64,000 nt of DNA, taken from NCBI GenBank assembly GCA_024642665.1, contig JAHEAR010000003.1, forward strand, positions 147,051 to 211,050, written 5' to 3'. The stretch is from Bacteroidota bacterium (GTDB lineage: Bacteria; Bacteroidota; Bacteroidia; Chitinophagales; Saprospiraceae). The position numbers and the translations under genes are program-made. The notes under the pieces are model-generated. The model saw nothing but the letters and a program-made list of their open reading frames with translations. It did not search any database and was not told where the DNA came from. Positions within the stretch are counted from its first letter, which is position 1. Each line of letters opens with the position of its first letter. Shown here piece by piece: positions 5,986-63,128 of this stretch.

Positions 5986-7506
5986 ATGACGCATCTTTCA
6001 GAACAAGAGATCAACAGAAGGGAAAACCTTCAGAAAATTATTGATCTGGGCATAAACCCTTATCCTTCAGAACTATTCCCGGTCAATGCCTACGCGGCAG
6101 ATATCAAGAAGGATTTCAAGCCTGACGAAGAATCTGTTATGGAAGTAGTAGTTGCCGGACGGATGATGTCACATCGCGTAATGGGCAAAGCATCTTTTGC
6201 GGAATTGCAGGATGCCAGTGGCCGAATTCAGATATATGTAGCTCGGGATCTCATCTGTCCCGGTGAGGATCAGTCCTTATACAATGAAGTGTTCAAGCAC
6301 TACCTTGATCTTGGTGATTTTATTGGCATCAAAGGAACTGTGTTTGTGACGAAAGTGGGGGAGATTTCCATCAAGGCCAATGAATTGATTTTGCTGAGTA
6401 AATCACTTAAACCATTGCCGGTGGTAAAAGTTGATGCGGAGGGAGTCACCCATGATGCTTTTAAAGACCCTGAGCAAAGGTATCGCCAGCGATATGTTGA
6501 TTTGGTGGTCAACCGGGATATTCGCAAAACCTTTGAAGACCGCACAAAGATGTACAATAGCATTCGGACGTATCTGAATGATAAAGGTTATCTGGAAGTG
6601 GAGACTCCCGTGCTACAGCCTCTGTATGGGGGTGCTGCAGCCAGACCTTTTAAGACACATCACAATACGCTCGATATGACATTGTATCTGCGTATCGCCA
6701 ATGAGCTTTATTTAAAACGCTTGATTGTCGGTGGTATCGAAGGCGTTTATGAGTTCAGCAAGGATTTTCGAAATGAAGGGATGAGCAGATTTCACAATCC
6801 TGAATTTACCCAAATCGAGCTTTATGTAGCGTATAAAGATTATGAGTGGATGATGAATCTTGTCGAAGAGGTGGTCGAAAAAGTAGCATTGGATATTCAT
6901 AATGATACAAAAGTGAAAGTGGGTGATCACGTGATTGATTTCAAGCGACCCTGGAAGCGATATACGATGTTCGAAGCGATAGCGCATTTTACGGGAACAG
7001 ATATTAGTACCATGGAGGAAGCTGAGTTGCGTGAAACCGCGAAGAAAATGGGAATACATCTAGATGCTTCGCTTGGCAAGGGAAAAATTATTGATGAAAT
7101 ATTTGGTGAGAAATGTGAAGCTCAACTCATTCAGCCAACATTCATCACGGACTATCCTGTAGAAATGTCGCCGCTGGCAAAGAAGCACCGCACTAAGCCT
7201 GGGTTGGTTGAACGATTCGAAGCCATTTGTAATGGGAAAGAAATATGTAATGCATTTTCTGAGCTTAATGATCCAATCGATCAGCGCCAGCGTTTTGAAG
7301 AACAGTTAGAACTAGGAAAGCGAGGTGATGATGAGGCAATGATGTTAGACGAAGACTTCCTTCGTGCCCTTGAATATGGGATGCCCCCAACGGCAGGATT
7401 AGGGATTGGTATGGACAGACTTGCGATGATCATGACTAATTCTGATTCTATTCAGGACGTCATCTTCTTCCCCCAGATGAAACCCGAGAAAAAGCAGGAG
7501 GCATAG
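5986..7506 (+). CDS. lysS: Lysine--tRNA ligase, class II
   Basis: A 506-residue class II lysyl-tRNA synthetase that charges tRNA-Lys with lysine using ATP. The N-terminal OB-fold anticodon-binding domain (about 55-150, [17 protein letters not shown]) is followed by the catalytic domain with motif 2 ([18 protein letters not shown]) and motif 3 (GLGIGMDRL) at the C-terminus. The length is normal. The stop codon TAG is followed without a gap by a purine-rich heptamer array. A TAnnTTTG box lies 25 nt upstream. Confidence 0.98.
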
Positions 7507-7541
7507 GACGAAGAGCGAAGGGCAGAGGGCGAAGGGCAAAC
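7507..7541. repeat. Heptamer tandem array, purine-rich (5 units, RGCGAAG-like)
   Basis: Units read gacgaag, agcgaag, ggcagag, ggcgaag, ggcaaac in a strict 7-nt register beginning at the base after the lysS stop codon. Read on the other strand they give CTTCGCY, related to the first units of the array at 7722. Confidence 0.75.
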
Positions 7542-7577
7542 AAATGATAAGTTGATAGTCGAAGAGTTTAGAAAGTT

Positions 7578-7592
7578 TCCCGCTTAGCGGGA
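7578..7592. repeat. Palindrome TCCCGC-TTA-GCGGGA
   Basis: A perfect 6-bp stem with a 3-nt loop. A matching palindrome with loop TAA (TTCCGC/GCGGAA) lies at 7745-7759 on the other side of the region and interrupts the right heptamer array. Confidence 0.65.
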
Positions 7593-7721
7593 GCAGCGAA
7601 TTTCGCATTAGTTGTTTAGGAAGTTTAGAAAAAAATCTGTTGGAAAATTTTTTCTCTGCGTGATCTACTATTTCTTTGCGCGATCACCGGGAAATTTTTT
7701 ATTTTTCATAATTCGTAATTT

Positions 7722-7843
7722 CCCTTCGCTCTTCGCTCTGCGCCTTCCGCTAAGCGGAACCCTGCGCACTTCGCCCCATGCTCCATGCTCCATGCTCCAT
7801 GCCCTACGCTCTTCACCCTACGCCCTTCACCCTACGCCCTACG
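7722..7843. repeat. Heptamer tandem array, pyrimidine-rich (16 units)
   Basis: Sixteen 7-nt units keep exact register: four units (cccttcg to ccttccg, 7722-7749), a 10-nt palindrome half (7750-7759), then twelve units (7760-7843), including three identical ctccatg and four ccctacg. The consensus is roughly CYCYWYG. The last unit extends into the end of psd and supplies its TAG stop codon on the minus strand. Confidence 0.8.
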
Positions 7844-8498
7844 CCTTAAATCGTGCTACTTCTGAAACTCCCCCTTTAACCGTTTGCCCGATCTGCACAA
7901 GGATTTCGGAATCGATCGGTAGAAATAAGTCGACCCGACTGCCAAACTTGATAAAGCCAAATTCCTCACCTCGACTGAGCAATGCGCCCGGTTTGGTATA
8001 GCAAACAATTTTTCGTGCTACTTTTCCGGCGATTTGTCTCATTAGAATCTGGTATTGTTTCTTTTTGATGACGACGGTATTCCTTTCGTTGAGTTCTGAA
8101 GATTTTGGGTGCCAGGCAACAAGATATTCTCCTGCGTGATACTGAACATAGGTGACTTCTCCGGTGACTGGACTTTTGTTTGAATGGACATTCAGGGGAG
8201 ACATAAAAACGGATATCTGTATGGCATCAGATTTTAAATACTCCTGTTCAAATGTTTTTTCAATGACCACAACCTTCCCATCGGCGGGGGCCAGAATCAG
8301 GTCAGTATCCTTCGTGCCATGCACTCTTGGTGGATTTCTAAAAAAAATAATAAACAAAATCAAAAAGAACAGACTTGTGCCTAACAATAAGCCTGTAAGG
8401 ATCGACATGAAATAATAGAACAGTAATCCGGCGACGATAAAAAACAAAAATGAATACAGGAGATAGAATACCCCTTCTTTATGCAATCGATATATCAT
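7839..8498 (-). CDS. psd: Phosphatidylserine decarboxylase proenzyme
   Basis: A 219-residue small-type phosphatidylserine decarboxylase that converts phosphatidylserine to phosphatidylethanolamine, the main membrane lipid. Two N-terminal membrane segments (about 12-50) are followed by the catalytic part with NVHSNKSPVTGEV and the C-terminal FGSRVDLFLP. The Gly-Ser in FGS is the self-cleavage site that creates the pyruvoyl group. It is the last gene of the minus-strand set CPBP-cdsA-psd and overlaps cdsA by 4 bp, indicating coupled translation. Its last two residues and stop codon lie inside the heptamer array, so the repeat has reached the gene end without damaging the conserved part. Confidence 0.95.
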   Translation of the reverse strand: MIYRLHKEGVFYLLYSFLFFIVAGLLFYYFMSILTGLLLGTSLFFLILFIIFFRNPPRVHGTKDTDLILAPADGKVVVIEKTFEQEYLKSDAIQISVFMSPLNVHSNKSPVTGEVTYVQYHAGEYLVAWHPKSSELNERNTVVIKKKQYQILMRQIAGKVARKIVCYTKPGALLSRGEEFGFIKFGSRVDLFLPIDSEILVQIGQTVKGGVSEVARFKA

Positions 8499-63072: not shown

Positions 63073-63128
63073 GATGTAGGTGATGGGTGATGGGTGATGA
63101 GTGATGGCTGATGAGGTGATTGAGTGAT
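63073..63128. repeat. Heptamer tandem array (GTGATGG-like, about 8 units)
   Basis: Units gatgtag, gtgatgg, gtgatgg, gtgatga, gtgatgg, ctgatga, ggtgatt, gagtgat keep a 7-nt register and begin 1 nt after the OmpH-like stop codon. On the other strand the unit is CCATCAC, related in form to the CTCCATG units near psd. Confidence 0.75.

Follow-up and report, generated by a model that had tools for sequence, protein, structure and literature searches.

Heptamer arrays at the ends of lysS and psd

The window, i.e. the whole stretch of 64 kb that was analysed, contains the convergent gene pair lysS and psd, with a gap of 332 nt between the two genes. The open reading frame of lysS (lysyl-tRNA synthetase; Pfam tRNA-synt_2, E = 3.5e-92) extends from 5986 to 7506 on the plus strand and ends with a TAG stop at 7504-7506. 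The open reading frame of psd (phosphatidylserine decarboxylase; Pfam PS_Dcarbxylase, E = 2.3e-40) occupies positions 7839-8498 on the minus strand. After rechecking the letters, we found that the repeat arrays at both genes are real, and that each of them reads outward from the stop of its gene.

The first array (7502-7536, plus strand) is purine-rich in the lysS sense and lies right behind the lysS stop. Four clear units, CGAAGAG, CGAAGGG, CAGAGGG and CGAAGGG, fill positions 7509-7536. The original prediction of five purine-rich units past the stop holds for these four, while the fifth is the degenerate unit CATAGGA (7502-7508), which spans the stop codon and thus contains it. The second array (7722-7843) is purine-rich on the minus strand, i.e. 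in the psd sense. It consists, as predicted, of 16 units that are pyrimidine-rich on the plus strand, arranged as 4 units, 10 nt (7750-7759), and 12 units. Compared with the pattern CYCYWYR, 12 of the 16 units match at 7/7 positions and the other four at 5-6/7. The strict register that had been claimed is broken in this array, because 10 is not a multiple of 7 and the insert shifts the register. The 10 nt are part of the palindrome TTCCGCTAAGCGGAA (7745-7759), and the palindrome TCCCGCTTAGCGGGA is found at 7578-7592. Both are window copies of a small family, TYCCGCTWAGCGGRA, with 24 sites (at most one mismatch) in the genome of the window and one in the reversed control.

The gene-proximal unit of the second array, CCCTACG (7837-7843), supplies the psd TAG stop (7839-7841, minus strand), as had been proposed. 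The protein ends with VARFKA, and the final codons AAG GCG TAG can be read as array sequence. Sequence comparison also confirmed a perfect inverted repeat of 14 bp between the arrays, with one arm at 7509-7522 (plus strand) and the other at 7722-7735 (minus strand); it exists because the two converging genes share one unit family, each on its own strand. The lysS-psd region folds more stably than its own shuffles (z = -3.1).

Behind the psd array in the psd sense, an A/T-rich stretch contains the heptamer TTACGAA (7712-7718, minus strand). A weak terminator-like site is located behind lysS at 7587-7606, and two such sites were found within 7400-8000, where 0.8 were expected. The covariance models of Rfam 15 gave no match to positions 7400-8000 up to E = 1, and blastn of the same positions against a plasmid collection gave no match, i.e. 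no sign of plasmid carriage. A scan of the window for runs of at least four such units retrieved only the lysS and psd arrays. At 63079-63128 a tandem repeat with a period of 7 (GGTGATG) is present, which is described better by a period of 21; the latter would fit a coding repeat.

Genomic distribution and position relative to stop codons

The psd relatives identified among named genomes come from MAGs of Bacteroidia (83% identity), Saprospiraceae (49%) and Chlorobiota (48%), and from one further genome (40%), on the basis of which the genome of the window is assigned to Bacteroidota. The closest of them, JAUHXV01, represents the sister species, here G012 (stretch L071 is contained letter for letter in L167). 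We searched the genome of the window (G000, 3.7 Mb) for strings of degenerate heptamers, i.e. three exact consecutive CYCYWYR units, and obtained 425 matches (278 + 147, overlapping positions counted) versus 7 in the reversed control. The corresponding values are 191 versus 1 for the sister species and 272 versus 31 for genome G061. At least one match is present in 16 of 100 genomes of the family, G000 among them, and in 52 of 395 genomes of a phylum sample. Only a few genomes have many matches, and the distribution across the phylum is therefore patchy. An array-start pattern, which overlooks arrays preceded by a heptamer starting with C, occurs at 52 places in G000 and at 2 in the control. 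The listed G000 arrays, counted from three units upward, have 3 to 26 units.

Genes on the stretches around the G000 arrays were called with our own scripts and a hexamer model, not with a standard caller. These stretches contain 76 arrays, seven of which lacked one neighbour and were dropped, leaving 69. The distance limits were chosen after a first view of the distances and are -20 to +10 nt for G000, -20 to +15 nt for the loci of genomes G061, G400 and G262, and -20 to +20 nt for a contiguous part of G262; within the limits for G000, the purine-rich strand of 38 of the 69 arrays starts at the stop of a co-oriented gene. When the arrays were shuffled to random places and strands within the same gaps, the value was 4.4 ± 2.0, with a maximum of 12 in 2000 trials. 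None of the 69 arrays reads outward from a gene start within -20 to +10 nt, compared with 5.7 expected, and only two lie upstream of a gene start in that orientation when the limit is widened to 50 nt. The targeting of gene ends that had been suggested is thus supported in a stricter form, in which the ending gene also has the purine-rich strand as its sense strand, yet 31 of the 69 arrays adjoin no co-oriented stop. By type of gap, 42 of the arrays lie between tandem genes, 18 between convergent genes, and 9 between divergent genes.

For comparison, the stretches L132-L151 were picked away from known arrays and served as background only. In this array-poor background plus the window, a sense two-unit tandem is present within 300 nt at four genes (in L142, in L144, and the two of the window), with stop distances between -3 and +2 in every case; the same set has one antisense two-unit tandem, 215 nt from the stop. 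TAG is used at 19 of the 38 array stops versus 79 of 350 background stops (p = 6e-4), and it is often supplied by a unit. Many other arrays exist and stops are strongly enriched, and therefore local slippage alone, the outcome by which the original prediction would have been refuted, is rejected (425 versus 7 matches, 52 versus 2 array starts, 38 of 69 arrays at stops).

Pfam searches with 20 of the 40 stop-abutting G000 genes gave matches for 17, which are of mixed kinds and have no common functional theme. One array-bearing gene (L116:2711-4183, minus strand) encodes a protein with a thiol-activated cytolysin domain (Pfam, E = 7.3e-48), with a heptamer array at its stop. In L118:4269-4524 (plus strand) the stop seemingly seeded its own array: CGGTTAA is followed directly by CGGTTAACGGTTAA (in full, CGGTTAA, then CGGTTAACGGTTAACGGTTAACGG, then a run of N).

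Other lineages have other units at the same place. Genome G262 belongs to another family of this order and has TGAAGAG as the sense unit at 40 array starts; some of these starts are repeats within one array, and 36 of the 40 fall in the 30 loci that were used after removal of the duplicates L221, L230 and L234 (equal to L218, L228 and L232). At these loci, 24 of 31 arrays adjoin a stop in sense orientation, compared with 5.5 after shuffling (maximum 13 of 2000 trials). One unit dominates, with 173 copies of TGAAGAG across 24 arrays and 14 copies of the next commonest. In addition, 400 contiguous kb of G262, chosen by position only and regardless of arrays, were scanned with TRF for any unit of 5-12 nt. 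Fourteen intergenic arrays were found, 12 of them of the AGTGAAG type (unit TGAAGAG), and 9 of the 12 adjoin a stop in sense orientation, compared with 2.5 after shuffling (maximum 8 in 5000 trials); of the remaining two, one is of the TTGTTGT type and adjoins a gene start. In G061 (unit TGTAGGG), 4 of 7 arrays adjoin a stop and one is near a gene start; seven could be judged because 3 of the 13 loci yielded nothing and 4 arrays had no upstream gene. In G400 (units GTAAGGA and GTATGGA) the value is 2 of 4. The sense strand is purine-rich and C-poor in common, with 77% and 86% purine in the G000 and G262 arrays, respectively; the purine content of pattern-found arrays is partly due to selection, while the TRF scan imposed no composition.

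The region behind the arrays was also inspected for terminators and further repeats. In G262, 12 of 27 loci have a terminator-like hairpin within 100 nt behind the array (0.7% in base-shuffled sequence) and none has one inside it, placing the array between the stop and the terminator in this genome. For G000 the values are 0 of 40 within 100 nt and 1 of 39 within 300 nt, and such hairpins are also rare past other G000 stops (30 of 272). The second heptamer, TTACGAA, is found up to 200 nt behind 12 of 39 G-rich array stops in G000 (e.g. L077, L106, L109 and L119); as a two-unit repeat it also occurs 10-159 nt behind 13 other stops, and in antisense at 10 stops. Octamer arrays of the ATCACTAA, AACCTCTT and GTGATTGG types are present in the remainder of some 3′ gaps (L075, L096, L115 and others).

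Turnover of the arrays between related genomes

The fetched parts of G000 and of the sister species G012 contain 134 reciprocal gene pairs. A heptamer pair is found at the stop of 16 of these G000 genes; it is retained in G012 at four of the 16, and four G012 genes have a pair where G000 has none. The G-skew past the stop, (G-C)/60 nt, is at least 0.2 for 9 of the 16 G012 orthologs of array stops, in comparison to 10 of 118 others (p = 2e-5), and for 9 of 15 versus 8 of 77 when the test is restricted to at least 60 nt of non-coding sequence. Three of the nine G-skewed orthologs have a heptamer pair and six do not. By visual inspection, replacement units at these stops include GTGAGTG with GGAGTGAT, or GGGCTGA, and some have a length of 8 or 9 nt, so that heptamers make up only part of the phenomenon. 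Four of the 16 orthologs look plain by eye, psd among them. G012 psd has no array and its protein ends with ARFVS, versus ARFKA in G000; thus either the array overtook the last codons in G000 or G012 lost it. The reverse comparison, of G000 orthologs of G012 array stops, comprised only three cases (G-skew, p = 0.36).

G012 also contains 85 copies (at most two mismatches; reversed control 0) of a 22-nt sequence with short inverted arms, CTCCTTCGCTAAAGCTACGGCG, e.g. in L153, L164, L165 and L211; it is absent from G000. Several copies are inside arrays past stops, and it looks like a young, species-specific repeat.

Genome G493, a congener of G262, was searched with the joined C-termini of 24 array-bearing G262 genes. 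This one-way matching gave 22 matches with 38-92% identity over the C-terminus, three of them below 50% (L240, L244 and L251). None of the 22 matched stops has a heptamer pair; 19 look plain, and three (for L238, L246 and L250) have other short repeats.

Proposed origin of the arrays and comparison with known repeats

Jointly with the origin proposed here, we tentatively assign the lysS and psd arrays to families of short tandem repeats that are specific to a lineage and accumulate at gene ends. Our preferred explanation, held with limited confidence, is that such arrays grow and are copied in an untranslated zone of the mRNA that starts at the stop codon, and that a cellular function is not needed, though the arrays may have one. 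The position, the strand, the number of loci, the differences between units, the kept G-skew, the empty stops of the congener and the hairpin placement in G262 were seen directly and support it. The arrays would form the beginning of the transcribed 3′-UTR, would lengthen by slippage in steps of 7 nt, and may spread as copies between loci through recombination or gene conversion, with the result that one unit would come to dominate one genome. The start point would be the stop codon because translation ends there: growth upstream of it would be blocked by selection on the protein and by the ribosomes covering the mRNA. Purine RNA pairs stably with pyrimidine DNA, and on this ground the naked purine-rich transcript downstream of the stop could re-anneal to the pyrimidine-rich template as an R-loop, leaving the sense strand single-stranded and prone to misaligned repair. 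The shared purine-rich, C-poor sense strand begins where ribosomes leave the mRNA, and growth and copying in this zone is therefore the explanation that we prefer. Furthermore, purine-rich tracts behind the stop may cost little, as we infer from the available part of PMC8710568.

Several results count against this explanation. Growth in place leaves unexplained why one unit recurs at many unlinked stops. In addition, terminator-like hairpins are rare behind G000 arrays, 31 of the 69 arrays do not fit, nine are located in divergent gaps, the reverse comparison is not significant with its p value of 0.36, and four of the 16 sister orthologs are plain.

A functional 3′-UTR element under selection is a rather unlikely alternative. 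It might block 3′-5′ exonucleases, be bound by a protein that recognises RNA or, in arrays with suitable GGG tracts, form a G-quadruplex; the exact unit would be immaterial, and the unit could therefore turn over. The strand- and position-specificity of the arrays and the G-skew kept in the sister species despite the changed unit speak for this possibility. A G3 quadruplex motif is present in 12 of the 40 stop-abutting G000 arrays, and a two-tier motif in 24 of 40. According to the accessible part of PMC4692102, such repeats of Xanthomonas fold into quadruplexes in vitro, and the ends of assembled transcripts (starts or stops) coincide with the quadruplex-forming repeats more often than with control repeats. 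However, all 24 G262 arrays lack even the two-tier motif, and a G-quadruplex is thus ruled out as the common reason. The mixed kinds of array-bearing genes and the small number of carriers (12 arrays per 334 called genes in the 400 kb of G262) also argue against a functional element, as does the lack of a heptamer pair at 22 of 22 matched congener stops, which shows that it is dispensable there.

We consider it unlikely that a dispersal system installs the repeat of a lineage at stops by targeted insertion, either RNA-templated or linked to translation, instead of growth in place. One main unit at the 40 array starts of G262 would be expected from such a system, as would matched congener stops that are plain (19 of 22) or have other short repeats (3 of 22). 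It would also agree with several unlinked loci of G000 at which, by eye, CAAAATAAAAATTACGAATTACGAA or a close variant of it comes directly behind an array. The sequences past the stops of G262 and G493 are, however, too diverged for an exact alignment of the junctions.

An action of the pyrimidine-rich antisense strand appears improbable; the arrays could load Rho and so keep antisense transcripts from running into the gene, or could pair as hairpins where genes converge. The antisense strand is C-rich and G-poor, the two arrays of the window can pair, and the stable folding of the lysS-psd region points in the same direction. Of the 69 arrays, 18 lie in convergent gaps and 9 in divergent ones; among 167 background gaps with a length of 100 nt or more, the counts are 24 (p = 0.04) and 49 (p = 0.008), respectively. 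Tandem gene pairs, however, still account for 42 of the 69 arrays. The weakest proposal, that units of 7 or 8 nt with TAG, TGA or TAA act as fail-safe stops and cover every frame downstream of the true one, is very improbable and possible for the TGAAGAG lineage only: three-frame stops exist in 24 of 24 stop-abutting G262 arrays, but in G000 they are ruled out as the common reason, with 17 of 40 arrays having them, three having no stop at all, and the commonest units, CATGGGG and CATGGAG, containing none.

Short tandem heptamers in intergenic DNA also exist in cyanobacteria, where they are called STRR, and the present arrays resemble them in this respect. The original prediction could name no counterpart in this lineage; a counterpart from other lineages is in print, namely the GGGNATC and GGGGA(C/T)T heptamers that Rehm et al. 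(2015, PMC4692102) described for Xanthomonas and Nostoc. In the available part of that paper, these repeats occur at many loci, are over-represented in non-coding DNA, and have no functional gene class and no assigned function. Those downstream of genes are mostly on the coding strand at a distance of 0-50 bp to the stop, and some overlap it; a further class occupies the non-coding strand a short way upstream of ORFs, and four units are preferred. The arrays described here likewise are G-rich tandem units of seven nucleotides at many loci per genome, over-represented in non-coding DNA and in part overlapping the stop, with no functional gene class, and 38 of 69 lie within -20 to +10 nt of a stop on the coding strand. 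In contrast, the upstream class has no equivalent here (0 of 69, 5.7 expected), and GGG tracts able to form quadruplexes are not a general feature here, judged by motif counts only (the G3 motif occurs in 12 of the 40 arrays of G000 and in 0 of the 24 of G262). Place and strand agree, but the arrays are set apart from the repeats described in that part of the paper because two features fail, namely quadruplex tracts in every lineage tested and the upstream class. The phylum and the units also differ (a GGG-type consensus there, TGAAGAG without GG here), and the gene context of 83% of the repeats is the same in two Xanthomonas species according to this source, whereas units are often replaced or absent in relatives here.

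TAACTGA heptamers have been described for Beggiatoaceae, Cyanobacteria and five Bacteroidetes (MacGregor 2015, PMC4679880). As far as the accessible text goes, they are intergenic, are located mostly just upstream of start codons in the main genome, and their long arrays are missing from close relatives of some strains. They are similar in being intergenic heptamers with a patchy spread that includes Bacteroidetes and with absence in close relatives; they differ in the unit, which is not G-rich, and in their place, mostly before starts in the main genome. Among the publications listed as matches, which cover titles and the beginnings of abstracts with subscription journals mostly outside, there was no report of stop-codon arrays in Bacteroidota. 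What differs from the Xanthomonas and Nostoc precedent, as far as that paper was available, is thus the lineage, units without quadruplex motifs, the turnover of units, and the empty sites.

The letters differ between species while the place is constant, which points to a process acting at stop codons. It is conceivable, though doubtful, that several lineages of Bacteroidota host an unrecognised process which senses where translation ends and places or rebuilds a purine-rich tandem repeat at that point; its unit would be genome-wide and replaced over evolution, and it would be addressed by stop codons and not by DNA sequence. Tandem repeats are usually ascribed to local slippage without a fixed location; the present arrays have a defined place, the stop codon, and a defined strand, that of the mRNA, in genomes whose units differ. 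This raises the testable question of whether translation termination, through bare mRNA, R-loops or an unknown element, sets the birthplace of repeats. It also serves as a warning for annotators, since in such genomes the repeats may rewrite gene ends, e.g. that of psd.
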